DNA from: Methanovulcanius yangii
Lineage (GTDB): Archaea; Halobacteriota; Methanomicrobia; Methanomicrobiales; Methanomicrobiaceae
Assembly: GCF_018687785.1 (NCBI RefSeq)
Contig: NZ_LTBL01000001.1
Span: 2,099,780 to 2,163,779, forward strand
Direction: 5' to 3'
Length of the DNA: 64,000 nt
Part shown: piece after piece, positions 1 through 23,642 of the stretch
How the letters are laid out: each line of letters opens with the position of its first letter
Position numbering within the stretch: position 1 is the first letter of the stretch
Notes under the pieces: generated by a model
Databases searched by the model: none
Told to the model about the DNA's origin: nothing
The model's input: only the letters and a program-made list of their open reading frames with translations
Program-made: the position numbers and the translations under genes

Positions 1-1
1 A

Positions 2-1570
2 AAAGCGGATGAGACTGCGATAAACGTACGTCGTCAGGAAATCTATCGGCAATGCAGGGAGAAGGCATACTTTCCCACCGGTTTTTTCACCCTCACTGTC
101 CCGACGGGGGGCGGCAAGACGCTCTCCTCGATGGCATTTGCTCTCTCTCATCTGGAGCGGCACGATCTGAAGAGAATATTCTATGTGATACCTTACACGA
201 GCATCATCGAACAAAACGCGGAAGTGTTCAGGAAGATCTTCGGGGCTGAGAATGTCCTCGAGCATCACAGCAATTTCGATCCAACGGGCGACCGGGCGGA
301 CAAGGATCCGATTCCCGAAACCGTTGCGGAAACGCTTAGTCTCTCATCGGAAAACTGGGACATCCCGATTACCGTGACGACGAATGTCCAGTTTTTCGAG
401 TCTCTCTTTTCGCACAAGCCTTCCCGCTGCCGCAAACTGCACAACCTCGCCAAGAGCGTGATCATTTTGGATGAGGCGCAGATGCTCCCGACCGGATACC
501 TGAAGCCGTGCCTTGCAGCCCTGACCGAGCTGGTGGTAAACTACGGGGCGACGGTGGTCATCTGTACTGCGACCCAGCCGAAACTTGCTGATCTTCTGGA
601 TGAGAACATCCGTCCTGTCGAGATCATGGACTCTCCTGATTCGCTCTATGAGGAGTTCAGACGAGTGTCGGTGAAGAGCGTCGGTTTGCTTGATGATGAT
701 GACCTTTCTGCCAGGCTGATGGAGCAGAAGCAGGTTCTCTGCATCGTGAACACCCGCAGGCATGCTCAGGAGCTGTTCGACCGGATATCGGGGAGCGGGA
801 ACTGCTATCATCTGAGCGCACGGATGTGCCCGGTGCATCGCCGAAAGCAACTCGATGCAATCAGACAATCGCTTTTGGCAGGACTGGACTGCAGGGTGGT
901 ATCGACGCAGCTCATTGAGGCGGGAGTTGATATCGACTTTCCCGTGGTGTACCGGGCAATGACCGGGGCTGATTCGATATGTCAGGCGGCCGGACGATGT
1001 AACCGGGAAGGGAAACGAGAAATGGGGGAGGTATTCGTCTTTCAATCGTCCGAATCTTATGGAAAGGCGACTCCCTGGCAGAGGAGGGTGGCTGAGATCG
1101 GGGAGATGGTCTGCCGGGACTTTGAAGATCCGATGGCCCTGCCCGCCATTGGGGAATATTTCAGGAAGCTCTATTTTTACGAGGGTTCTGAGCTTGACAA
1201 GAAGAGGATTCTTCCCATGATTGAAGAGTTGGGTAGGAAAATGGAATTTCCATTTGAGGATGTCGGGACCTCGTTTTCGTTTATCGAGGATAATACGCGG
1301 GACGTAGTCATCCTCTATGATGCACAGGCACGGGACATCATCGAGCGGGTTCGTCGCGAAGGTTTTCCCGGAAGATTTGCCCGGAGACTTCAAGGATATT
1401 CGGTCAATGTCTATCCGAATGAGTTCAGGGAGATGGAGCGGGAAGGGGCGGTGGAACTGATCGCTGAGAAGTACTACGTGCTGAAGAATTGCATGGAATC
1501 GTATTCTGAGTCAGTTGGATTATTGAACAAAAAATATAACGATGCTGAAAATTTATTATTGATTATCTAG
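2..1570 (+). CDS. cas3: CRISPR-associated helicase Cas3, type I-C (5' partial)
   Basis: The reading frame is open from base 2 with no stop, so the gene begins upstream of the window and the first in-frame ATG at 131 is internal. Cas3 is the nuclease-helicase recruited by Cascade to unwind and degrade target DNA. The visible 522 residues are the superfamily 2 helicase part. Walker A (PTGGGKT) is at about nt 105-122, the Walker B box reads DEAQ at about nt 470, a CTATQP motif III follows, and the arginine-finger motif VI (QAAGRCNREG) is at about nt 982. The N-terminal HD nuclease domain must lie off the window and cannot be checked. The stop is four bases before the cas5c frame, so the genes are probably co-transcribed. 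Confidence 0.95.
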   Translation, partial: KADETAINVRRQEIYRQCREKAYFPTGFFTLTVPTGGGKTLSSMAFALSHLERHDLKRIFYVIPYTSIIEQNAEVFRKIFGAENVLEHHSNFDPTGDRADKDPIPETVAETLSLSSENWDIPITVTTNVQFFESLFSHKPSRCRKLHNLAKSVIILDEAQMLPTGYLKPCLAALTELVVNYGATVVICTATQPKLADLLDENIRPVEIMDSPDSLYEEFRRVSVKSVGLLDDDDLSARLMEQKQVLCIVNTRRHAQELFDRISGSGNCYHLSARMCPVHRRKQLDAIRQSLLAGLDCRVVSTQLIEAGVDIDFPVVYRAMTGADSICQAAGRCNREGKREMGEVFVFQSSESYGKATPWQRRVAEIGEMVCRDFEDPMALPAIGEYFRKLYFYEGSELDKKRILPMIEELGRKMEFPFEDVGTSFSFIEDNTRDVVILYDAQARDIIERVRREGFPGRFARRLQGYSVNVYPNEFREMEREGAVELIAEKYYVLKNCMESYSESVGLLNKKYNDAENLLLII

Positions 1571-1574
1571 GGAG

Positions 1575-2255
1575 GTGATTGCCATAGGTTTTGGAATTAG
1601 ATTGAAAGTATGGGGGGACTATGCCTGCTTTACCCGGCCCGAGATGAAGGTCGAGCGGGTCAGCTATGACGTCATGACCCCGTCGGCTGCACGGGGCATT
1701 CTTGAAGCGATATACTGGAAACCTGCCATTTCATGGAAAATTGACCGGATACATGTCCTGAATCCGATAAAATTTGATAATATCCGGAGAAACGAAGTCA
1801 ACAGCAAAATTCCCGCTTCAAATGTTAAGAGCGCGCTCAAAGGCGGGGAAGTGTCACTGCACCTTGACCCGAATGATGACCGGGTGCAGCGCGCATCCCT
1901 TGTCCTCCGCGATGTGTGCTACTGCATTGAGGCGCACTTTGAGATGACAAAGGAGGCGGGTCCCGACGACACTCCGGAGAAGCACTACAATGTCGCCCTT
2001 CGCCGAATGAGGAAGGGGCAATGTTTCCACCACCCGTATTTTGGCTGCCGGGAATTTCCGGTGAACTTCGAGTTTGTCGAGGGAGAGATTCCGGGGTCGT
2101 ACTATACCGGGAAAAACGGCGGGGAGAAGGATCTCGGCTTCATGCTCTATGACATTGATTTTGCGGATGACATGAAGGCCATATTCTTCCGGGCGAATAT
2201 GGTTGACGGTGTCATCGATTTGGAGAGGTGTCTGGCATATGGAGGTGTCTCTTGA
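1575..2255 (+). CDS. cas5c: Cascade subunit Cas5c (Cas5d family), pre-crRNA endonuclease of type I-C
   Basis: In type I-C systems, which lack Cas6, Cas5c cleaves the pre-crRNA at the base of the repeat hairpin and stays bound to the 5' handle. The N-terminal region with VWGDYACFTRPEMK and SYDVMTPSAARG is typical of the Cas5d/c subfamily, and the length (226 aa) is normal. The start is uncertain. The GTG at 1575 lies inside a strong Shine-Dalgarno sequence (GGAGGTGAT, 1571-1579), and the codon best placed after that site is ATA at 1584, which would give a protein starting just before GFGIRLKVW. No ATG is available. The 3' end overlaps the likely cas8c start. Confidence 0.93.
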   Translation: MIAIGFGIRLKVWGDYACFTRPEMKVERVSYDVMTPSAARGILEAIYWKPAISWKIDRIHVLNPIKFDNIRRNEVNSKIPASNVKSALKGGEVSLHLDPNDDRVQRASLVLRDVCYCIEAHFEMTKEAGPDDTPEKHYNVALRRMRKGQCFHHPYFGCREFPVNFEFVEGEIPGSYYTGKNGGEKDLGFMLYDIDFADDMKAIFFRANMVDGVIDLERCLAYGGVS

Positions 2256-4147
2256 TCATTCAGTCCTTGTGCCGGTACTACGACATTCTCAAGGACGATC
2301 CCGCCGTTGAAATATCAGAATACGGTTCCAGCAATGCAAAAGTCTCTTTTGTTTTTGTTCTTTCACCGGAAGGTGAATTGAACAATATCGTTGCCCTCGG
2401 AAGCGATGATGCCAGATTACGCTTCCAGCTGATGGATGTCCCGATGCAGGAGAGCCGCTCGGGGAAAAACCCTCCACCATATTTCCTCTGTGACAATGCG
2501 AAGTATGTTCTCGGCGTTGAATGGCTGAAAAAGGCCGATTTCCAGAAGAAATATCCATCCGCGGCGAATGGTGAAAACCCCTCCGGCTGTACTGTGCTGG
2601 AAGAGAATGAGAAAGGAACACTTCTTGTACATGGGCCTTCCGAAGACCGCTTTCAGGCATTCAAAGGACTTCATCACGAGATTCTTGATGGCACAAATAT
2701 CCCTGCGGTCGCATCCCTGCTCACGTTTCTGGATGCATGGAATCCTGAAACAGCCCTGGATCATCCAAAAATTCAGGATTACAAGGATGACATTTTCACC
2801 GGAGGAAATGTGATCTTTGAATGTGAAGGGGCTTATCTACATAAAATACCTGCCATACGGGCTCTCTGGGAAAGTCATTATGCACGAGAATCTGCCAAAG
2901 ATGAACAGATATCCCAATGCCTGGTGACTGGAAACGCTGAGCCGGTGGCCCGGTTGCATCAGAAGATCAAAGGGGTCACCGGTGCCCAGAGTTCCGGGGC
3001 AAGTCTTGTCAGCTTCAACGCGGATGCGTTCGAGTCCTATGGGAAGGGGCAGAGTTACAATTCCCCGGTCGGAACCCTCTCGATGTTCAAGTACACCACG
3101 ACCCTGAACCATATGCTTGCTTCAGAGAGGAACCGGATTCGCATTGGAGATTCTACTGTGGTTTACTGGGCTGAAACGAGCAATTCATCCTGTGAGGACC
3201 TTGCAGGATTCTTTTTCAATCCTCCGAAGGGGAAGGAGAATGAAAACGGCATCACGGAAGGGGAAGATGATTCCCGCATCCGGGATGCGAAAACCATCCG
3301 ACAGATGGGAGATATCCTCAACAAGGTCCGGAGAGGAAGGCATCTGAACCGTGACGATCTCGGCACGGATGCTGATACGAAATTCTTCATTCTGGGCCTT
3401 GCACCGAACAATGCGAGACTAGCCGTGCGGTTCTGGTATGTCGATATCTTTGGAGAGTTCATCGAAAAGATTGCACGGCATTATCTCGATATGGAGATTA
3501 TCCGGGACGATTTCGGATCGCCATTCGTCACACCTTATCAATTACTGAAAGAGACGAGTCCGAAAAGTGCGGATCGCAAGGAAGCATCGCCTATCCTCGG
3601 CGGGCTCCTGATGCGGTCAATTCTGAACGGAACGGGCTATCCGGTGCAGATGTACAGTGCGATTCTAAGTCGTGTGAAAGTTGAGCGGTCGATTAATTAT
3701 GCACGGGCCGGATTCATCAAGGCTTACCTGCTGAGGCAGAGCAGATCCGGCTCATCACCCCTGAAGGAGGAACTGATTTCCGTGAAATTGAATGAAGAAA
3801 ACCCTGATGTGCCCTACCGTCTGGGAAGGCTCTTTGCCGTCCTCGAGAAGGTGCAGAGCGAGACGAACAAGAATATGGGCAGCACGATCACCAGCAAATA
3901 TTTCAGCAGTGCGTCGACGACACCCGCCGTGGTATATCCGGTTCTCCTGAAACTGGCACAGCACCATATTGCAAAGTCTGACTGGGGATTTAAAACGACC
4001 CAGTCGATCGAGGAGATCCTTTCGGGAGTTGATGCGTTTCCCGAATATCTGACGCTGGAAGAGCAGGGGATGTTCATGCTTGGCTATTACCACCAGCGCA
4101 AGGCCAACTACAGTAAGAAGAACGAAAAAGCAGTCGAGGAGGAGTAA
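2252..4147 (+). CDS. cas8c: Cascade large subunit Cas8c (Csd1)
   Basis: Large subunit of the type I-C effector, which recognises the PAM and holds the target duplex. The best start is TTG at 2252: it follows GGAGGTG (2241-2247) by four bases and overlaps the cas5c stop (TTGA), a normal translational-coupling arrangement. An ATG at 2228 in the same frame has no ribosome-binding site and would extend deep into cas5c. From TTG the protein has 631 residues, within the usual Csd1 range. The assignment rests on the SLCRYYDIL opening, the position between cas5c and cas7c, and Csd1-like segments such as FILGLAPNNARLAVRFW. Cas7c follows after two bases. Confidence 0.93.
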   Translation: MIIQSLCRYYDILKDDPAVEISEYGSSNAKVSFVFVLSPEGELNNIVALGSDDARLRFQLMDVPMQESRSGKNPPPYFLCDNAKYVLGVEWLKKADFQKKYPSAANGENPSGCTVLEENEKGTLLVHGPSEDRFQAFKGLHHEILDGTNIPAVASLLTFLDAWNPETALDHPKIQDYKDDIFTGGNVIFECEGAYLHKIPAIRALWESHYARESAKDEQISQCLVTGNAEPVARLHQKIKGVTGAQSSGASLVSFNADAFESYGKGQSYNSPVGTLSMFKYTTTLNHMLASERNRIRIGDSTVVYWAETSNSSCEDLAGFFFNPPKGKENENGITEGEDDSRIRDAKTIRQMGDILNKVRRGRHLNRDDLGTDADTKFFILGLAPNNARLAVRFWYVDIFGEFIEKIARHYLDMEIIRDDFGSPFVTPYQLLKETSPKSADRKEASPILGGLLMRSILNGTGYPVQMYSAILSRVKVERSINYARAGFIKAYLLRQSRSGSSPLKEELISVKLNEENPDVPYRLGRLFAVLEKVQSETNKNMGSTITSKYFSSASTTPAVVYPVLLKLAQHHIAKSDWGFKTTQSIEEILSGVDAFPEYLTLEEQGMFMLGYYHQRKANYSKKNEKAVEEE

Positions 4148-4149
4148 AA

Positions 4150-5001
4150 ATGAGTGAAATTATCAAAAACCGGTATGAATTTGTCTTGTTGTTCGATGTC
4201 GAGAACGGAAATCCGAACGGTGACCCGGATATGGGGAACATGCCGCGGGTGGACCCCCAGACCGGGCATGGCATCGTAACCGATGTCTGCCTGAAACGCA
4301 AGGTGCGTGACTATGTCGACCTGGTGAAAAACGAAGAGGCGGGTTACGACATCTATGTGAAGTCGGGCGCTGTTCTCAATGACCAGCACAAGAAGGCGTA
4401 TGATTATCTCGGCATTGAACCCTCCAAGAAGAAACCCAAGGACGATGAACTGACAAAATTCATGTGCCGGAATTTCTTTGATATCCGGGCCTTTGGTGCG
4501 GTAATGGCGACGGAGGTGAACTGCGGACAGGTACGGGGCCCCGTTCAGATCAATTTTGCCCGAAGCCAGGATCCCATCTACCAGCAGGAGATCACCGTCA
4601 CCCGCCTTGCGGTGGCAAATGAAAAGGATGCCGAAAAAGGCCAGACGATGGGGAAGAAACAGGTGATCCCGTATGCACTGTACCGGGCAGAGGGGTATGT
4701 CTCCCCCCATCTTGCAAAGAAGACGACCGGGCTTTCCGAGGAGGACCTGGACCTCTTCTGGGAGAGCCTCGTCAATATGTTCGAGCATGACCATTCCGCG
4801 GCACGCGGGAAGATGTCTGCGAGAAAACTGATCGTCTTCAAACATGACAACGAACTCGGCCGCTGCCAGTCGCACATCCTCTTTGACAAGGTGAACATAG
4901 AACGTCTCTCAAAGGATCTTCCTGCCCGGTCGTTCAAGGACTATAGTGTCACGATTTCTGAGGATATTCCTGAAGGCGTCGAGATGATTGAGAAGTTATG
5001 A
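4150..5001 (+). CDS. cas7c: Cascade backbone subunit Cas7c (Csd2)
   Basis: Cas7c polymerises along the crRNA spacer to form the Cascade backbone. The N-terminus carries the very conserved Csd2 block LLFDVENGNPNGDPD, followed by PRVDPQTGHGIVTDVCLKRKVRDY. Further on, RAFGAVMATEVNCGQVRGPVQ is also characteristic. The length of 283 residues is normal. A GAGGAG ribosome-binding site lies in the end of cas8c just before the ATG. The TGA stop overlaps the cas4 ATG (ATGA), consistent with coupling inside one operon. Confidence 0.96.
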   Translation: MSEIIKNRYEFVLLFDVENGNPNGDPDMGNMPRVDPQTGHGIVTDVCLKRKVRDYVDLVKNEEAGYDIYVKSGAVLNDQHKKAYDYLGIEPSKKKPKDDELTKFMCRNFFDIRAFGAVMATEVNCGQVRGPVQINFARSQDPIYQQEITVTRLAVANEKDAEKGQTMGKKQVIPYALYRAEGYVSPHLAKKTTGLSEEDLDLFWESLVNMFEHDHSAARGKMSARKLIVFKHDNELGRCQSHILFDKVNIERLSKDLPARSFKDYSVTISEDIPEGVEMIEKL

Positions 5002-5684
5002 GGCGGCGCAGATATGCCGATGACGACCTGCTAGCGTTGTCCGGCATACAGCATTTTTCATTTTGCCGCCGCCAATGGGCACTGATACATATCGAGCGGC
5101 AATGGGAGGACAACCTCCGTACTGCTGAAGGACATTTCATTCATACGAGAGTGGATGACCCGTTCTTCTTCGAAACGAGAGGCGATACTGTTGTTTCGCG
5201 TGCATTTCCCCTCGTATCTTATACGCTCGGATTTTCCGGGGTTGCTGATGTGATCGAGTACATCCGGTCTTTAGAGGGCATATCCCTTCCAGATCACGAG
5301 GGGCTCTGGAGGTTGAATCCAGTTGAGTATAAACGGGGAAAGCCGAAGATTGACGAGTGCGATGAGGTGCAGCTGTGTGCTCAGGTGATGTGCCTCGAAG
5401 AGATGTATGGCGTAACCATTACATCTGCAGATTTCTATTATCACGAGATACGCAGGCGGGTTCATCTCAGTATCACGGATGAACTGCGAAATACCGTTCG
5501 GGCACTTGCTGACGAAATGCATGATTTATTCGAGAGAGGAATCACGCCGATGGCAGATCCATCCAGAAATTGCCGCTCCTGTTCACTGGTCAATGTATGT
5601 TTTCCGAAATTGACCAAAAAGAAGCAGGCGGTTGACCGGTATATCCAGAAGCATGTGAATGACGCTGCTATTACCGATTATTGA
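4998..5684 (+). CDS. cas4: CRISPR adaptation exonuclease Cas4
   Basis: Cas4 is a RecB-family nuclease with a 4Fe-4S cluster that helps Cas1-Cas2 select and trim PAM-bearing prespacers. The 228-residue protein has the expected cysteines: one in HFSFCRRQW near the N-terminus and a C-terminal group in CRSCSLVNVCFP. The RecB-like core includes GVADVIEY and VEYKRGKPK, with catalytic acidic residues and the lysine of the motif. Its ATG overlaps the cas7c stop, so it is part of the same transcript. The order cas4-cas1-cas2 is the standard type I-C adaptation module. Confidence 0.95.
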   Translation: MRRRRYADDDLLALSGIQHFSFCRRQWALIHIERQWEDNLRTAEGHFIHTRVDDPFFFETRGDTVVSRAFPLVSYTLGFSGVADVIEYIRSLEGISLPDHEGLWRLNPVEYKRGKPKIDECDEVQLCAQVMCLEEMYGVTITSADFYYHEIRRRVHLSITDELRNTVRALADEMHDLFERGITPMADPSRNCRSCSLVNVCFPKLTKKKQAVDRYIQKHVNDAAITDY

Positions 5685-5737
5685 GGAGTTGCTGAGCATG
5701 GCTGTAGATATTATGAGAATTATTTGAGGGTGATGAT

Positions 5738-6769
5738 ATGCGAAAGCTCCTCAATACGCTGTATGTTACAACCCCCGATTCTTATCTGACACGGGAGGGA
5801 GAGAATGTTATTGTGAAGATCGATGGGAAGAACGCATTCCGCATCCCTGTCCATACCCTCGAAGGAATTGTCTGCTTTGGTTACATGGGGGCAAGTCCGC
5901 AGTTGATGCGGCTGTGCACCGATAACAATGTCGGCCTCTCTTTTCTCTCGCCATCCGGAAAATTTCTGGCACGAGTGAATGGCAGAGTCAGGGGGAATGT
6001 ACTTCTCCGGAGAACTCAGTATCGAAGAGCCGATAACCGGGAGGATTCACTGGATATTGCACGGGCGTTCATCGTCGGGAAAATTGTCAACTGCCGGACT
6101 GTCCTTGGGCGCAGCATCCGCGATCATGGTGAGAGCATCAACTGCAACAGGATTCGTGGTGCCGACGACCTTCTGATTGAGAATCTTTTGAAAATAGAAG
6201 GTTGCATGGATCCCGATACCTTAAGGGGAATTGAGGGTAACTGTGCAAAATACTATTTCGATGTTCTGGATGAACTGATCCTTCTGCAAAAAGAGGACTT
6301 CTATTTGTACCAGAGGAACAGGAGGCCACCGCTCGATAACATGAATGCCCTTCTCTCTTTCCTCTACACCCTCCTTGCCCATGACGTCGAATCTGCCCTG
6401 GAGACGGTCGGGCTTGACCCGTATGTTGGATTTTTCCATACGGACCGGCCAGGAAGGGCGAGCCTTGCCCTTGACCTGATGGAGGAACTGAGGCCATTCC
6501 TGGCCGATCGCTTAGCGCTGAATCTCGTCAATCTGAGGCAGCTCGCCGGGAAGGATTTTTACAAGAAAGAAAATGGTGCCGTGATCATGACCGATGAGGG
6601 GAGAAAGGCGGTCCTTGGAGCATGGCAGAAGAGAAAGCAGGACCAGATCACGCACCCCTATCTCAAGGAAAAGATTCCTGTGGGATTGGTTCCCTATGTT
6701 CAGGCAATGCTTCTGGCCCGCTATCTGCGAGGGGATATTGACGGATACCCGCCGTTTTTCATGAATTGA
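5738..6769 (+). CDS. cas1: CRISPR integrase Cas1, type I-C
   Basis: Cas1 catalyses spacer integration at the leader-repeat junction. The 343-residue product begins MRKLLNTLYVTTPDSYL, characteristic of the type I-C Cas1 group, and carries the active-site region AALETVGLDPYVGFFH-like (here SALETVGLDPYVGFFHTDRP) with the conserved glutamate, histidine and aspartate pattern. A ribosome-binding stretch GAGGGTGAT precedes the ATG at 5738. The 53-base gap after cas4 holds no gene. The cas2 start lies nine bases past the stop. Confidence 0.97.
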   Translation: MRKLLNTLYVTTPDSYLTREGENVIVKIDGKNAFRIPVHTLEGIVCFGYMGASPQLMRLCTDNNVGLSFLSPSGKFLARVNGRVRGNVLLRRTQYRRADNREDSLDIARAFIVGKIVNCRTVLGRSIRDHGESINCNRIRGADDLLIENLLKIEGCMDPDTLRGIEGNCAKYYFDVLDELILLQKEDFYLYQRNRRPPLDNMNALLSFLYTLLAHDVESALETVGLDPYVGFFHTDRPGRASLALDLMEELRPFLADRLALNLVNLRQLAGKDFYKKENGAVIMTDEGRKAVLGAWQKRKQDQITHPYLKEKIPVGLVPYVQAMLLARYLRGDIDGYPPFFMN

Positions 6770-6778
6770 GGGATTATT

Positions 6779-7069
6779 ATGATGGTTTTGGTTACCTACG
6801 ATGTAAATACCGAAACGGATGAAGGAAGGAAGAGGCTGAGGAAGGTTGCAAAAGTCTGCATGAACTACGGACAGCGGGTGCAGAACTCGGTCTTTGAGTG
6901 CCTGGTCGACCCTGCGCAGTTTGCAAACCTTAAACATGCGTTGTGCGAAATCATCGACGAGAAGAAGGACAGTCTTCGATTTTATTACCTGGGGAAAAAC
7001 TGGCAGAACAGGGTGGAGCACTATGGTACCAAGGAAGGGTATGACCCGGAAGGATTCCTATTGATTTGA
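6779..7069 (+). CDS. cas2: CRISPR adaptation protein Cas2
   Basis: Cas2 is the small ferredoxin-fold dimer that scaffolds Cas1 in the integration complex. The product is 96 residues, the normal size, and begins MMVLVTYDVNTE with the conserved aspartate at the end of strand one. The internal RVQNSVFECLVD and the C-terminal RFYYLGKNW are typical. The start could be either of the two adjacent ATG codons (6779 or 6782). It is the last cas gene. A long inverted repeat begins at the second base after the stop codon, before the leader. Confidence 0.96.
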   Translation: MMVLVTYDVNTETDEGRKRLRKVAKVCMNYGQRVQNSVFECLVDPAQFANLKHALCEIIDEKKDSLRFYYLGKNWQNRVEHYGTKEGYDPEGFLLI

Positions 7070-7070
7070 G

Positions 7071-7117
7071 CTCTGCGAACCTGAAGCGGCCATGAAATTG
7101 CAAGGAGGTTCGCGGAG
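7071..7117 (+). promoter_or_regulatory. Inverted repeat directly after cas2, possible RNA hairpin
   Basis: CTCTGCGAACCT (7071-7082) can pair with AGGTTCGCGGAG (7106-7117): 11 Watson-Crick pairs and one G-U pair around a 23-base loop. It starts one base after the cas2 stop codon. It has no following T run, so an intrinsic terminator is not obvious. It may bound the cas transcript, protect its 3' end, or separate cas transcription from the leader. The pairing is seen directly; any function is inferred. Confidence 0.5.
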
Positions 7118-7332
7118 AACTTCACGTTATCCATTTTAATCCTTTTGGAGAATCGTGCCTTCGAATGGGAATCGCGTAATGTTTGCCATCCCGATATTAA
7201 AAATCACACAATATTATTTATTCCAATGAATTTTTCTCCAGCCTTGGAATCTCAACAAAATATGATATATGTGCAGGGAATAAGACATTGTAATAGCCTG
7301 ATTCGGTTATCTCACGTTCCGAATAGGTTGCA
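7118..7332 (+). promoter_or_regulatory. CRISPR leader
   Basis: This stretch between cas2 and the first repeat holds no credible gene and is markedly AT-rich compared with its flanks, notably at 7193-7250 (ATATTAAAAATC, ATATTATTTATTCC). It is on the side where repeats are perfectly conserved, opposite the degenerate end, as expected for the leader where new spacers enter and pre-crRNA transcription starts. The exact promoter cannot be fixed by eye, but 7193-7220 is the best TATA candidate. Confidence 0.75.
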
Positions 7333-10300
7333 GTCACACCCCTCGCGGGTGTGTGGATTGAAATCCATTCGTCCGGGTCGATACCGCACCGGATCTGTGT
7401 CACACCCCTCGCGGGTGTGTGGATTGAAATACACAAAGACGCTGAAAGCGAACAAAAACGAGGTGTCACACCCCTCGCGGGTGTGTGGATTGAAATTCCA
7501 TTTGGGGGGCAATCTGGGCGTTTCCAGGCGTCACACCCCTCGCGGGTGTGTGGATTGAAATTCTCCGAGTGCGTCGGCGATGAGTGTCACAGGCGTCACA
7601 CCCCTCGCGGGTGTGTGGATTGAAATGATGTACCGCTCGCTCATGAGAAGCCCCCCATTTGTCACACCCCTCGCGGGTGTGTGGATTGAAATAGAGTTGC
7701 ATCCCTCTCTTCTATCGGTTTGACAGTCACACCCCTCGCGGGTGTGTGGATTGAAATATCGTCATAAACTGCTTAGCCCCGGGAACGGAGAGTCACACCC
7801 CTCGCGGGTGTGTGGATTGAAATCGTTTTGCCAGTGATAAGGAGATCCCCTGCCGGGTCACACCCCTCGCGGGTGTGTGGATTGAAATCTTGTAGTAGCC
7901 GAGGCAGTTCTGGTAGAACCTGGTCACACCCCTCGCGGGTGTGTGGATTGAAATTTTCTAGGTGGTGTTGTGTGGTATCATCCTTATAGTCACACCCCTC
8001 GCGGGTGTGTGGATTGAAATCTGCTCCTCGCTCACATGAAGGGCGGCAACGCCGTCACACCCCTCGCGGGTGTGTGGATTGAAATCATTTTACCCTCGAC
8101 GACAACCCCAACCTATCGGAGTCACACCCCTCGCGGGTGTGTGGATTGAAATGATGGAGGTGCGTGATGAAACTCCAGATCAACGGGTCACACCCCTCGC
8201 GGGTGTGTGGATTGAAATTCCACGACACCGCAGGCACGATCACCGGCTACGGTCACACCCCTCGCGGGTGTGTGGATTGAAATAACGATATCGAACCATC
8301 CGACGAACTCGCCGCCGGTCACACCCCTCGCGGGTGTGTGGATTGAAATCATAGGTACATGATTAGCCGTAGCTAGCAAAAAAATGTCACACCCCTCGCG
8401 GGTGTGTGGATTGAAATCGCCCTGAAAGGGATCACCGCCGAGATGGACAAGGTCACACCCCTCGCGGGTGTGTGGATTGAAATGTATAGGGGATGATGGC
8501 CGGCTAATTGATGAGGTGTCACACCCCTCGCGGGTGTGTGGATTGAAATATCCAGAATTAAGAGGATATACAGGAGCTTTTGCCGTCACACCCCTCGCGG
8601 GTGTGTGGATTGAAATAGGAGTATGTTGGCCAGCGCATGGACGAGCTTTACGGTCACACCCCTCGCGGGTGTGTGGATTGAAATAACCTGGGGAACAAAG
8701 GTATGTTCAAATTCCCCGTCACACCCCTCGCGGGTGTGTGGATTGAAATCATCAATGGTGAAAATTTGGCCAACGCCAACGGCGTCACACCCCTCGCGGG
8801 TGTGTGGATTGAAATCGAAACTGGCAAAGTATCTCGGACGCGACCGGACGCAGTCACACCCCTCGCGGGTGTGTGGATTGAAATACAAAAAAGCAGGGGG
8901 AGAATGTCAATGTCTGAAGTCACACCCCTCGCGGGTGTGTGGATTGAAATTAGTTATCGCCCAACATCGAGCAAGAGTAGATGGTCACACCCCTCGCGGG
9001 TGTGTGGATTGAAATACTTGACATCCTCTCCTACCACATATCTGCTAAAGTCACACCCCTCGCGGGTGTGTGGATTGAAATAATACGCCAAGGAGAACGG
9101 GAAATCCCCTGAAGAGTCACACCCCTCGCGGGTGTGTGGATTGAAATATCATGAACCCCCAGGACCGGAGAGATGGAAAAGTCACACCCCTCGCGGGTGT
9201 GTGGATTGAAATAAGAACTTCCGGCGACAGATCTGCCCGATGCTGGTCACACCCCTCGCGGGTGTGTGGATTGAAATATTATCGCTCACTCTAACACCGA
9301 GCCAGGACACAAGTCACACCCCTCGCGGGTGTGTGGATTGAAATCATGTGCTCCCGGGCGTTCTGTAATCGGCGCTCGTCACACCCCTCGCGGGTGTGTG
9401 GATTGAAATAAAGAGGAATCGACCGGCCCGTGGACCCTCGTGAACAAGTCACACCCCTCGCGGGTGTGTGGATTGAAATCTCCTGAAACGTGACCAGATC
9501 ATCAAGGAGGTGACGTCACACCCCTCGCGGGTGTGTGGATTGAAATACGTCCTTTAACCAGATCCGACACGTCCCGATTCCGTCACACCCCTCGCGGGTG
9601 TGTGGATTGAAATGCCAAACGGCGACAGGTCGGGGCGCTGGCGAAGGTCACACCCCTCGCGGGTGTGTGGATTGAAATCTCGCCGACGACTACAACCCGG
9701 GAGAGATCATCGTCACACCCCTCGCGGGTGTGTGGATTGAAATAGGGTAGTTCGTTTCAAGCTCACAAACAACAAAGTCACACCCCTCGCGGGTGTGTGG
9801 ATTGAAATTATCGTCACACCATTTTTATTATAATCAGAATCGTCACACCCCTCGCGGGTGTGTGGATTGAAATAACCGCGTGACCGTCCGCAGCACCTAC
9901 GAGGACGGTCACACCCCTCGCGGGTGTGTGGATTGAAATCCGCATGGAGGTTGACCTCTCTTGAGTCCCCAGAGTCACACCCCTCGCGGGTGTGTGGATT
10001 GAAATAGGCTCTCACGGGTGCGGATGCCAACAAAACAGGTCACACCCCTCGCGGGTGTGTGGATTGAAATCGTAGGAGCGCCTTACATATGCGTTTCCAT
10101 GAGGGTCACACCCCTCGCGGGTGTGTGGATTGAAATACGACAGTCCGGGTCCCAACACATCCATTGGGGTTGTCACACCCCTCGCGGGTGTGTGGATTGA
10201 AATATCTGTTTACGGGTCTGCTTTTCCGAGCTTAGTAGTCACACCCCTCGCGGGTGTGTGGATTGAAATTTTGTGTCCCTAATTATCTGCATGGCCATTA

Positions 10301-19842: not shown

Positions 19843-20868
19843 TCAATATACAACATTTGGCAATCGGGACACGTTCAACCCAATTCGTACACTTGATGCC
19901 AACCCCTTATCCTGTGTGCAATATTCATAACTGCCTGAGGGGTAATCGTGATACTCGAATGGTAAGGGAATCCAGACCGCCATGAATTCATGGAACCCTG
20001 TTTCATTTGGAACCATGATGCTTGAAGGGATGGCTATTTTCTCCCCCGGAGACAGATTTCCAAATATCGCATATTGCGATGAATTGGTATTGATTGGAAC
20101 CTGTTGATAATCCATAAAGGTGATGATGGCAAACTTATTGAGATAATCGTCTCCAGCCGCACAGTTAATCCAATATGGAATGTTTTCACCCGGGATCCCG
20201 GTTTCGGTGTACCATAATTTTTTCGAACAGGCCTCTTTTGTCATCAGCAATCCATCATTCAGAGGATAATCAGAACTACATTGTTTAAAGAGCGGATTTG
20301 TGGAATTGTCGTACTCAATATTGTAATGGGTATCATTGTCAACAATCAGATTCAATCTGATGCCCCGTACTGATGATAGATCCGTGCTGAGTCGGAAAGA
20401 TGGATCCATTGAATGGTTATTCGGTTCCATAGCCAGTATAATTGCCATATCGTGTTTCCCTCTTGTCAGATTGGACACAGTAATGCTGAAAAATTTCTCT
20501 TCATAGGGATCTACGGATGCATTAAACAATATATTGGCATCATCTCCCTCAAATTCAAAAGGAACCTGCCGGAAATCCACTAAAACAAAAACGAAAAATT
20601 CGGTTGTATCTGGTATCTGGTTACTGAAATAAAGATAACACTCCAAAGGGGTACTGTGATTCAAATGTACCAATGATGGAATGCTGTACTGGTGATCATG
20701 GTTCGGTGCTGAATATAGTCCGATGCCCATCCTCTCTCCCAGGCTTTGTGAATTGAATTTGCCGCTTTCATGCAAATTTGAGGTTCCATTACCTCTGTCG
20801 CATTGAAACGCGTATATGCAAAAAATTAGAACAGATATCAGTAGAGCGGATAGGAAAATAATCCTCAT
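19843..20868 (-). CDS. Secreted or membrane-anchored protein of unknown function
   Basis: Not recognised. About 341 residues: an N-terminal hydrophobic segment (MRIIFLSALLISVLIFCIYAF) acts as a signal or anchor, followed by a beta-rich extracellular part with many N-glycosylation sequons (for example NNHS, NLTR, NDTH, NSTN) and four or more cysteines that could form disulfides. Base composition is clearly more AT-rich than the flanking housekeeping genes, suggesting an accessory or acquired gene. I chose ATG 20868; an in-frame TTG at 20889 is possible. An operator-like palindrome (20907-20922) lies 39 bases upstream of the ATG. Confidence 0.75.
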   Translation of the reverse strand: MRIIFLSALLISVLIFCIYAFQCDRGNGTSNLHESGKFNSQSLGERMGIGLYSAPNHDHQYSIPSLVHLNHSTPLECYLYFSNQIPDTTEFFVFVLVDFRQVPFEFEGDDANILFNASVDPYEEKFFSITVSNLTRGKHDMAIILAMEPNNHSMDPSFRLSTDLSSVRGIRLNLIVDNDTHYNIEYDNSTNPLFKQCSSDYPLNDGLLMTKEACSKKLWYTETGIPGENIPYWINCAAGDDYLNKFAIITFMDYQQVPINTNSSQYAIFGNLSPGEKIAIPSSIMVPNETGFHEFMAVWIPLPFEYHDYPSGSYEYCTQDKGLASSVRIGLNVSRLPNVVY

Positions 20869-20906
20869 AACCGGTTTATAGCTCTTCAATCCTTCTAACC
20901 CCTATC

Positions 20907-20940
20907 TTCGATTTTCATCTAAGAGAATGTAAAAATATAT
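20907..20940 (-). promoter_or_regulatory. Promoter with operator-like element, copy A
   Basis: Read on the minus strand: a TATA-like ATATAT (20935-20940), then 12 bases, then TTAGAT-GAAA-ATCGAA (20922-20907). The element would straddle the expected transcription start of the 20868 gene. The same core occurs at 21582-21597 and, as a perfect palindrome, at 22449-22464. Confidence 0.6.
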
Positions 20941-20977
20941 CCAAATTGGCGAAGGCGTCTCCATCGTCTCACCCATA

Positions 20978-21394
20978 TCACGAGAGATTTTGAGGAAGAT
21001 CCGGTGGAATTTTTGGTGGGGTCAGATAATAGATCTCAGTGATTTCGCCCTCGTAACTGACCGCCACCAAGTGGGTGATGATCTGCTCACCCGTATCGGG
21101 ATCGAAGACATGGATGTACACAACATAGGAGATTCCCTCGTCCGGAGGGCCCAACTGTCCCGTCCGCACTTCGGTCTCGATCGTGAAGCCACGAATAATT
21201 TCCTGTATTTCCGGGTCGGTAAGGGCAATTTCACGAGCCTCTTCCTTCGATATCGGATATGAGGATGTTGGTGTTGCGGTCGCATTCTGTGATGCAGGAG
21301 TGTCCTCCTGTACTTCATTGAGGCAGCCACCCGCGCATCCAAAAAGGATGCAGAGGAAAACCAGTAATCCTCTGATCATATGTGTTTTCCTCAT
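20978..21394 (-). CDS. Small predicted lipoprotein of unknown function
   Basis: Not recognised. About 138 residues: a short charged N-terminus, a hydrophobic core (GLLVFLCILFGCAGGC) ending in a lipobox-like CAGGC, a Thr/Ser-rich spacer (ASQNATATPTSS), and a compact domain resembling PepSY-like propeptide folds in pattern (ISKEEAREIALTDPEIQEI, then YVVYIHVFDPDTGEQIITHLVAV). The PepSY resemblance is only a guess from pattern. ATG 21394 was chosen; ATG 21403 is three codons earlier. Promoter copy B lies about 190 bases upstream, implying a long leader. Confidence 0.72.
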   Translation of the reverse strand: MRKTHMIRGLLVFLCILFGCAGGCLNEVQEDTPASQNATATPTSSYPISKEEAREIALTDPEIQEIIRGFTIETEVRTGQLGPPDEGISYVVYIHVFDPDTGEQIITHLVAVSYEGEITEIYYLTPPKIPPDLPQNLS

Positions 21395-21581
21395 GGCATC
21401 CATGTATCGACCCTATATGCCTGTGACCACCAGGGGTGATAAAACGTTGCTCTTGCCTCCGGGCAGATGCAGGGTTCACCAACCATCAGCAAACCGGCCG
21501 GGAACAGCTGCATGTTTCCGGGTGTCCCTGCGACACCCGATTGAATTTCCAGTGGGTAGAGGGATAAAGCCTCGGAATATC

Positions 21582-21618
21582 TTCGATTTACATCTAAGAT
21601 AATGCAAAAAACTATATG
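21582..21618 (-). promoter_or_regulatory. Promoter with operator-like element, copy B
   Basis: Minus strand: TATA-like ATATAG (21618-21613 area), 14 bases, then TTAGAT-GTAA-ATCGAA (21597-21582). It is nearly the same as copy A over about 37 bases, including the shared CGAAGAT downstream flank, so the two promoters may descend from one duplicated element. It would drive the lipoprotein gene with a leader of roughly 190 bases. Confidence 0.6.
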
Positions 21619-21906
21619 CTGCGTCCTAGGTTTTTCTGAGTCACTACAGTGGTGCAGTCAAACCCTGCATACACAGATCGGTAAACCCGGATGAGAACAG
21701 AGAGGGTAGGGTGAAAACCTGTCTTATTGCGTTACTTCAGGGAAATGATGCGTTTTGCCATATCTTTCGCGTAAGGATGATCGAAAAACAGGGTTCGTAG
21801 GGCGGTCGCTCCATCGAATTTGTGGGAATATGGAACCTTATGCGGGGACAAGGAGTTTGCTACTGCATCCCATAGACAAATTCAAAAAACCAGTCCATTT
21901 GTAATC

Positions 21907-21937
21907 ATCCAATATTATTATATTGGTTGTATTGGAT
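21907..21937 (+). promoter_or_regulatory. Inverted repeat upstream of the membrane-anchored regulator
   Basis: ATCCAATA (21907-21914) and TATTGGAT (21930-21937) are perfect inverted 8-mers separated by 15 bases, with an extra TATTGG at 21921-21926 between them. It ends 11 bases before the ATG and overlaps the AT-rich promoter, a position fit for autoregulation. Confidence 0.5.
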
Positions 21938-21948
21938 AATGAACTACG

Positions 21949-22422
21949 ATGGATGAGCAAGGTATCGTGTTGAATAAAGACATATTCGAGATATTATCCA
22001 GCGATACAAGAATTAAGATTTTGAAGTCGTTGAATTCAAGAAAAAAAACAAATTCAGAACTTGCAAAAGAACTTTCTTTGGAATCCTCGACTATTCACCA
22101 TCACCTGAAACAATTGGATGAGAGCGGGCTGATCAAATCCCTCGATACAGGAAACAGATGGGTGTATTATGAGCTCACTCCGAACGGGATTGCCCTTATG
22201 AATCCTGATGGAAACACAAAATTTTCCGTCATCCTTTCATCTCTGATCACATATACAACTGCTTTTGCAGCCCTGTACACCTATTATACAATTCCAAGAC
22301 TTCAGGCAAAGCCCCTTTTTCCACATATGGCAGAAGATCCTTTCCTTTTGCTGGGTATCGTCGGTGTTGTTGCAATACTATTACAGACGGCAATCATTGC
22401 CAGAGTGTATCTCAAAAAATAA
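21949..22422 (+). CDS. Winged-helix (ArsR-like) regulator with two C-terminal membrane helices
   Basis: The 157-residue protein has an N-terminal winged-helix domain (about 8-85): IFEILSSDTRIKILKSL, recognition segment SSTIHHHLKQLDESGLI, and a wing with GNRWVYYELT. Two hydrophobic segments follow (VILSSLITYTTAFAALYTYY and LLGIVGVVAILLQTAIIARV). Such membrane-tethered one-component regulators could read an envelope or external signal. No metal-binding cysteine pair is seen in the HTH part. It sits between genes for secreted proteins that share an operator-like element, so it is the natural candidate to control them, but that is inference. Confidence 0.85.
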   Translation: MDEQGIVLNKDIFEILSSDTRIKILKSLNSRKKTNSELAKELSLESSTIHHHLKQLDESGLIKSLDTGNRWVYYELTPNGIALMNPDGNTKFSVILSSLITYTTAFAALYTYYTIPRLQAKPLFPHMAEDPFLLLGIVGVVAILLQTAIIARVYLKK

Positions 22423-22427
22423 TACAA

Positions 22428-22464
22428 TATATAAATGCTCCGATTAGGTTAGATTTTCATCTAA
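22428..22464 (+). promoter_or_regulatory. Promoter with perfect operator palindrome, copy C
   Basis: TATATAAA (22428-22435), then TTAGAT-TTTC-ATCTAA (22449-22464), a perfect 6-bp inverted repeat. The palindrome should cover the transcription start of the S1 protease gene. Copies A and B keep the core with one changed base in the second arm. Confidence 0.65.
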
Positions 22465-22505
22465 TATTTTTGCAGAATTTATAATGCTAACTTTTCAATG
22501 TACTT

Positions 22506-23642
22506 TTGCCGGAACAATCTGAGTATCTTCACCTCTGTATCAGATTGCGGCAGGAGTTGATTAGGATAAGAATTTTGAGAGTTGTTCCCCTCTTCATCGC
22601 ATGTTTATTGATCTTCGGGTTGTGTGGTGCGGTCTCGGGATACCGTCTGAACGATGAAGCCTATGCGGCGGTTTCTGCTGATTACACGGACCGCCTCATT
22701 GCCGCATATGGCAATGTACCGGTGTACAGCCAAAACGGAGATGTCGTCAGTACGGGAATGCAGGAAACCATTCCGGATGAGAAGGCAATGTCGGAATGGT
22801 ACAGCCGGTTACACCGGATTGTGGAGGATACGCGTCCCGAAATGAAGAGTAATTATTATCCCGACGGGCCGATCATCGGCTACGGGCACGATCTCCTCGG
22901 AACAATTGTTGTTGCCATATTCGACGAGTCTGATTATGTACCCCGGGAAACGCTCGATGAAATGCATTCCCTTATCGATTCGGCTGCAGTGAAAGCAGGC
23001 ATCGAAGATGTCCCGGTGATTTTTACGTCCGAATCAATTCCTGAATTGTCAGCGGATCGGGATGACACCTGGAGACCGCTCATAGGAGGGATACAGTGTG
23101 TTGCCAATGGGTATGTCGGCACCACCGCTTTTGCTGCAACAAGAAACGGACAGGACGGTATAGTTATCACCGGCCACCTTGGTGATGTTGGAGATGTAGT
23201 ATACCAGCCCTCTCCATCGAATGTAATTGGAACGATAACAACAATTTCGTATGGCGCCAATTCGGACTCGGCCTGGGTCTCGTATTCCAATGTTGCCGAC
23301 AATATCTTTGAATATTCGTGGTCGCAGCCGGATGTGTACAGCTACAGTGACCCATGGGAAAATTTGAATGTGATCATGTCGGGGATAACGAGCGGGACGG
23401 TGAACGGCCTCGTGGTTCGGGAGTCTGATGCCTATAATCCATATTATGGATTCAGTATTCCTGACCAATGGGTGGCAGACTACCCAGCTGCATCCGGTGA
23501 CAGCGGGGCCCCTGTTTACTATAAAGATGGATCACACAGGATACATGTGGCAGGTTCTCATTGGGGGAGTAAAAATGGATATGCGTTTTTTTCTCCGGTA
23601 TCATCGATAATGAATGATTTGGGAATCATTCCCATTTTTTAA
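22506..23642 (+). CDS. Secreted chymotrypsin-fold serine protease (S1, alpha-lytic-like)
   Basis: The C-terminal half is an S1-type protease: His224 in ITGHLGDVGD, Asp254 in ANSDSAWV and Ser333 in the hallmark GDSGAPVYY (numbering from TTG 22506). The closing VAGSHWGSKNGYAFFSPVSSI matches the substrate-pocket strands of streptogrisin/alpha-lytic-type enzymes. A signal peptide (about residues 22-45, RILRVVPLFIACLLIFGLCGAVSG) and an N-terminal region of about 130-150 residues precede it; the latter could act as a propeptide chaperone. The start is uncertain: TTG 22506 is first in frame, and TTG 22558 or 22575 would give a shorter N-terminus. Copy C of the operator lies upstream. Confidence 0.85.
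   Translation: MPEQSEYLHLCIRLRQELIRIRILRVVPLFIACLLIFGLCGAVSGYRLNDEAYAAVSADYTDRLIAAYGNVPVYSQNGDVVSTGMQETIPDEKAMSEWYSRLHRIVEDTRPEMKSNYYPDGPIIGYGHDLLGTIVVAIFDESDYVPRETLDEMHSLIDSAAVKAGIEDVPVIFTSESIPELSADRDDTWRPLIGGIQCVANGYVGTTAFAATRNGQDGIVITGHLGDVGDVVYQPSPSNVIGTITTISYGANSDSAWVSYSNVADNIFEYSWSQPDVYSYSDPWENLNVIMSGITSGTVNGLVVRESDAYNPYYGFSIPDQWVADYPAASGDSGAPVYYKDGSHRIHVAGSHWGSKNGYAFFSPVSSIMNDLGIIPIF

Follow-up and report, generated by a model that had tools for sequence, protein, structure and literature searches.

In Methanovulcanius yangii, a membrane-tethered winged-helix regulator and a 16-bp palindrome at three promoters around its gene probably constitute a tethered repressor-operator system for secreted proteolysis, acting by the full mechanism proposed below. 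Within the analysed stretch of 64,000 nucleotides (the window) and across genera, our computational analyses established where the palindromic sites are, that they are unique to this locus in the genome, what position they hold relative to the promoter, and that they are linked to and covary with the regulator. The features concerned are listed below in window coordinates; the operators and the TATA-like boxes are predictions from the sequence.

19843-20889, minus strand: putative secreted or anchored sequon-rich protein, start TTG 20889 or ATG 20871
20907-20922, minus strand: operator 1, TTAGATGAAAATCGAA, at the sequon-rich protein promoter
20933-20940, minus strand: TATA-like box of the sequon-rich secreted protein gene, 13 nt to operator 1
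20978-21403, minus strand: putative lipoprotein of 141 aa with an invariant GC lipobox, possibly of PepSY/propeptide-like fold (weak)
21582-21597, minus strand: operator 2, TTAGATGTAAATCGAA, at the lipoprotein promoter in the divergent lipoprotein/regulator intergenic region
21611-21618, minus strand: TATA-like box of the lipoprotein gene, 15 nt to operator 2
21949-22422, plus strand: membrane-tethered winged-helix regulator of 157 aa, from a PF01022 match, hydropathy and a layout kept in full-length homologs
22428-22435, plus strand: TATA-like box of the protease gene, TATATAAA
22449-22464, plus strand: operator 3, TTAGATTTTCATCTAA, a perfect palindrome at the protease promoter, with an equivalent site in relatives
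22477-22484, minus strand: reverse TATA-like box on the opposite side of operator 3, TTATAAAT, with similar boxes in relatives
22506-23642, plus strand: secreted alpha-lytic-type (S1E-like) serine protease, from a profile against the PDB and an invariant triad; the true start may be a later TTG

The initial annotation had described three TTAGAT-N4-ATCKAA palindromes, and all three are present at the positions and on the strands that it gave. With at most one mismatch, the motif occurs at these three places only in the 64-kb window, corresponding to 6 strand-matches; shuffling the window gave an expectation of 0.38 strand-matches per shuffle, and 6 were reached in 0 of 100 shuffles. A search of the whole genome (2,289,878 bp), as the annotation had proposed, returned the same three places only at zero or one mismatch, confined to 1.6 kb around the regulator gene, and all further genome matches listed were 2-mismatch background. 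The motif is not common in the genome. A chance origin of the palindromes was rejected on the window shuffles, the genome scan and a random-placement test near regulators.

The winged helix proposed for the regulator was confirmed by PF01022 (E = 4.4e-13, 49.3 bits against a cut-off of 22), and NF033788 was also matched (55.8 bits against a cut-off of 55). The ArsR-type HTH covers residues ~10-82 and runs directly into the membrane part, with the first helix starting near residue 92. The two membrane helices of the annotation correspond, on hydropathy, to hydrophobic helices at residues ~92-110 and ~132-150, and the layout of a winged helix followed by two helices was kept in the full-length homologs examined in the order. 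No other protein of its genome matched the regulator at E <= 1e-8. At the same threshold, 61 of the order's 199 genomes (the window's own included) encoded homologs of this family, found in Methanomicrobiales; among the carriers are Methanoculleus sediminis, Methanoregula and Methanofollis. In locus L086 (G007, 6210-7453) the regulator-protease pair is decaying, with an in-frame TAA in the regulator and an adjoining protease that is shortened. Proteins combining an HTH with hydrophobic helices, with TT...AA palindromes near the gene, were also seen in Aenigmatarchaeota, Archaeoglobi and Mnemosynella (L189, L190, L197, L199), and a wider distribution of regulator-type relatives outside the order is possible.

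The palindromes share a nearly constant position relative to the TATA-like boxes. The distance had been given as 12-14 nt; measured from the last TATA tetramer it is 13, 15 and 15 nt, which is slightly off but within the same range. The usual archaeal distance from TATA to start places the start site within each palindrome. Because of this and the measured spacing, the palindromes are predicted to cover the expected start sites. In aligned promoters, TATA-like boxes flank the operator on both sides at similar distance; for the reverse box, TATA-like scores were obtained at 14 of 204 positions within the spacing window against 6 of 680 outside it (p = 8e-6, with sites that are not independent). 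In divergent loci the second TATA box can serve the regulator gene. In co-oriented loci, including the window, the reverse box would face the regulator 3' end and might represent either a relic or a promoter for antisense transcription. The regulator's own promoter carries no obvious operator copy, and operator 2, in the divergent intergenic region, could serve the regulator too. A further palindrome, CCAATATTATTATATTGG at 21909-21926, lies just 5' of the regulator gene; it is unrelated to the operator and is the sole copy in the window.

Archaeal activators usually bind upstream of BRE/TATA, which counts against the unlikely reading that the same regulator, bound to the same operator by the start site, activates its targets by helping to recruit polymerase or to open the promoter. 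Activation is also disfavoured by the operator position, which is downstream of TATA, varies little in spacing and overlaps the expected start site; for archaeal repressors, a site downstream of TATA is an established arrangement (PMC6085418). On the other side, the tethered ArnR and ArnR1 of Sulfolobus are activators that act through inverted repeats TCGAC-N5-GTCGA, although the analogy is weakened by differences in domain layout, boxes and targets (PMC6396743). The earlier term "tethered repressor" stands in part: tethering agrees with hydropathy, and the repressor sign is suggested by the operator position only.

The palindromes could also be RNA hairpins or transcription terminators, given that a T-run follows operator 3, 27 nt past the regulator stop, and that the folding of operators 2 and 3 is slightly more stable than that of shuffled sequences (z = -1.4 and -1.8). 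However, the stems are weak and AT-rich (-3.9 to -6.3 kcal/mol), operator 1 folds no better than shuffles, the palindrome in divergent loci is at the promoter and at no gene's end, and the TATA spacing is nearly constant. This explanation was rejected and is very improbable.

The association of the operator with the regulator was observed far beyond the window. TTMGAY-N4-RTCKAA (<=1 mismatch) was found within 300 bp of 22 of 40 homologous regulator genes, against an expectation of 1.55 of 40 and a maximum of 6 in 300 trials when placed at random in the same DNA. When the regulators were split into recognition-helix classes, by hand and after the data had been seen, the motif was near 22 of 27 regulators with an H-H/Y-H helix and near 0 of 33 with other helices (Fisher p = 6e-12, which the relatedness of the genomes makes too small). 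Of the five H-H/Y-H exceptions, two have a GAAGAT half-site variant, one is at a contig end, one gene is frameshifted and one has its site ~430 bp away. In an order-wide scan, TATA-N12-17-operator occurred in 21 of 60 regulator-bearing genomes compared with 3 of 138 others (p = 7e-10, again too small owing to relatedness among genomes), and TATA-operator pairs at other spacings had no association with the regulator (p = 0.5). Extra sites in G001, G031, G066, G091, G083, G142 and G067:C218 were not accompanied by a convincing candidate for regulation and were set aside as background.

The link between operator and regulator is carried by about seven genera. The regulator gene is either upstream and co-oriented or divergent, with the palindrome between both genes at the promoter of the secreted gene. 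The conservation check named in the annotation gave the same picture, as the motif is kept in relatives carrying the regulator. A regulator encoded elsewhere might bind the palindrome, the tethered protein being a mere neighbour, and three regulator-free genomes do contain a TATA-spaced match; nevertheless, we consider this quite improbable in view of the co-localisation in about seven genera, the covariation of operator and recognition helix, and the strong tie between the TATA-spaced motif and the presence of the regulator. Linkage and covariation strongly support the palindrome as the predicted operator of the tethered regulator. Another explanation is duplication of a promoter fragment inside the locus, with no common regulator, as operators 1 and 2 have ~27 nt in common (CATTMTCTTAGATGWAAATCGAAGATA). 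It is hardly credible, since operator 3 shares the palindrome alone with the other two, and other families retain the palindrome in the same place despite differing flanks and target genes. Overall, the proposal of the initial annotation that a shared operator at promoters, linked to a membrane-anchored regulator, controls a secreted protease and surface proteins is supported by the comparative genomics.

The gene downstream of operator 3 had been called an S1 protease. The window protease had no Pfam hit, and its family profile against the PDB matched lytic endopeptidase 5mrr (E = 4e-7) and alpha-lytic protease (E = 6e-7), in agreement with that assignment. The triad His-Asp-Ser occurs in order with GDSG, and H214, D244 and S323 (alignment row 1) are invariant in 8 homologs. 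The AlphaFold model of the protease (mean pLDDT 48.7) was too poor for a fold search. Relatives of the window and Methanoregula-like genomes have an alpha-lytic-type secreted protease next to the regulator. In the fetched Methanoculleus loci the adjoining gene codes for a serpin (in L106, PF00079 with 390 bits, E = 1.5e-116, profile 2-370/370), and in Methanofollis-like and some other genomes for a C39-like secreted peptidase with PF13529 above the cut-off. The family of the adjacent gene varies and the theme is constant: what is conserved is not the "small envelope regulon" first suggested but secreted proteolysis, with a protease, serpin or C39-like peptidase adjoining the regulator. Two further loci contain serpin genes. 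In L113 (G119, 1-3175), outside Methanoculleus, two tandem serpin genes adjoin a regulator that is truncated at the contig end and closely related to that of the window (74% over 61 residues). The Methanoculleus locus L124 (G088, 4104-9412) contains the regulator twice, with an apparent frameshift in one copy, and has three TATA-spaced operators before serpin and C39-like genes.

The lipoprotein and the sequon-rich protein had been counted in the same set, and their homologs gave a different result. No inspected homolog of either adjoins a TTMGAY operator, and both genes are for this reason placed outside the conserved core; in the window they appear to be lineage-specific recruits. The lipoprotein has a lipobox Cys that does not vary across 7 homologs. 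The protein had no Pfam hit, PF03413 included, and its model, with two helices followed by four strands, was matched weakly by the propeptides 4k90 and 3nqz and by the DUF2874 structure 4k61 (E 0.4-0.9). In several Methanoculleus genomes, its homologs are located 1-2.5 kb from a HEHL-type regulator paralog. The sequon-rich protein contains 11 N-x-S/T sequons in 342 aa and has homologs in 10 other genomes of the order; three inspected homologs are near C39-like or transglutaminase-like secreted proteins. The cluster 19843-23642 is AT-rich (gene GC 0.40-0.51 compared with ~0.60 around it), and the regulator and both surface-protein genes were not found in two same-genus genomes of 82 and 91% completeness. 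The AT-richness and the absence from these two incomplete genomes fit an acquired island.

Taken together, we propose that the regulator is a one-component protein whose N-terminal ArsR-type winged helix would bind DNA as a dimer, and whose C-terminal pair of membrane helices, with a short loop on the outside, would tether it to the cytoplasmic membrane. It would bind the 16-bp TTMGAY-N4-RTCKAA ~13 nt downstream of TATA, over the start site, and may thereby block the recruitment of RNA polymerase. In the genome of the window, the predicted targets are the alpha-lytic-type secreted protease, the lipoprotein and the sequon-rich secreted protein. A signal at the membrane or the external loop, such as surface damage, peptides or the balance of protease and inhibitor, might release the regulator. 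Binding, the dimer, repression rather than activation, and the signal are the parts of this scheme that we infer.

Tethered one-component regulators and ArsR-fold repressors are already known. As in bacterial ToxR/CadC-type regulators, a membrane-tethered HTH could pass an outside signal straight to DNA; the ToxR/CadC type differs in having an OmpR-type HTH, one membrane helix and a large periplasmic domain, and in comprising mostly activators. The window regulator resembles ArsR/SmtB repressors (PF01022) in its HTH fold by sequence (E = 4e-13) and in having a palindromic operator at the promoter, but its HTH is fused to two membrane helices and its targets are not metal or arsenic genes. An ELCVCDL-type Cys metal-binding box is absent; the equivalent stretch in the alignment is SELAKELSL, and because the HTH contains no Cys there is no recognisable metal-binding box. 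Similar to ArnR and ArnR1 of Sulfolobus acidocaldarius, it is an archaeal one-component regulator that combines an HTH at the N terminus with two membrane helices at the C terminus (here by hydropathy), and those proteins likewise control surface structures through palindromic boxes with a TCGA core (PMC6396743). However, ArnR and ArnR1 contain HAMP and sensor domains, undergo phosphorylation, switch on archaellum genes and require two boxes (PMC6396743), whereas here the helices directly follow the HTH, one 16-bp palindrome lies over the expected start site, and the predicted targets are secreted proteases or inhibitors. This comparison concerns domain layout, boxes and targets as described in that paper. 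The promoter of the SptA halolysin of Natrinema sp. J7-2 offers another parallel, as an archaeal secreted serine protease gene with semi-palindromic promoter elements, one of which, just upstream of the start site, is negative; unlike the window protease, SptA is subtilisin-type and haloarchaeal, and its regulatory proteins remain to be determined (PMC6085418).

In agreement with the initial annotation, no published description of this gene set was found in open-licence papers, nor was one of serpin control in methanogens, tethered ArsR regulators or methanogen alpha-lytic proteases. The open-licence literature searched likewise contained neither the operator nor the subfamily code, nor a connection of the operator with secreted proteases, serpins or C39-like peptidases. 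Regulators of archaeal secreted proteases are largely unknown, and the regulator-operator pair reported here is conserved through several genera and comes with a predicted specificity code. It may offer a one-component route of outside-in signalling that bypasses two-component systems, and it points to a little-studied control of extracellular protein digestion in methane-producing archaea.

A second subfamily is suggested by paralogs with an H-E/Q/D-H helix, which lack TTMGAY and accompany TTCGGW-N4-WCCGAA instead. All 16 exact sites of this palindrome in 896 kb of fetched DNA are in loci with such paralogs, either adjoining the regulator (L110, L112, L122) or ~1-3 kb away, mostly before operons that encode a secreted protein together with a PepSY protein (PF03413). 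The pattern has many background matches genome-wide, and the link to the paralogs thus rests on proximity. H-R-H regulators (L087, L088) accompany TTAGTT-like half-sites. These differences suggest that residue 51 of the recognition helix may read half-site position 5. A broader picture, which we regard as doubtful though conceivable, is that an entire family of tethered archaeal winged-helix repressors monitors proteolysis outside the cell and exerts feedback on the genes for secreted proteases, serpins and PepSY-type proteins. Every operator would then lie between face-to-face TATA boxes, a single binding event would shut off the target together with the regulator (or a transcript antisense to it), and the change of His51 to Glu/Gln/Asp or Arg would set the palindrome read by each subfamily. 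As a separate observation, a distinct promoter class, TATA-N18-TTCGAC-N4-GTCGAA, with a spacing of 18 and no association with the regulator, occurs in four families of the order (L126-L130, L146, L148; matches in G008, G010, G024, G048, G069, G080, G114 and G141). Its palindrome, TTCGAC-N4-GTCGAA, resembles the ArnR box TCGAC-N5-GTCGA.
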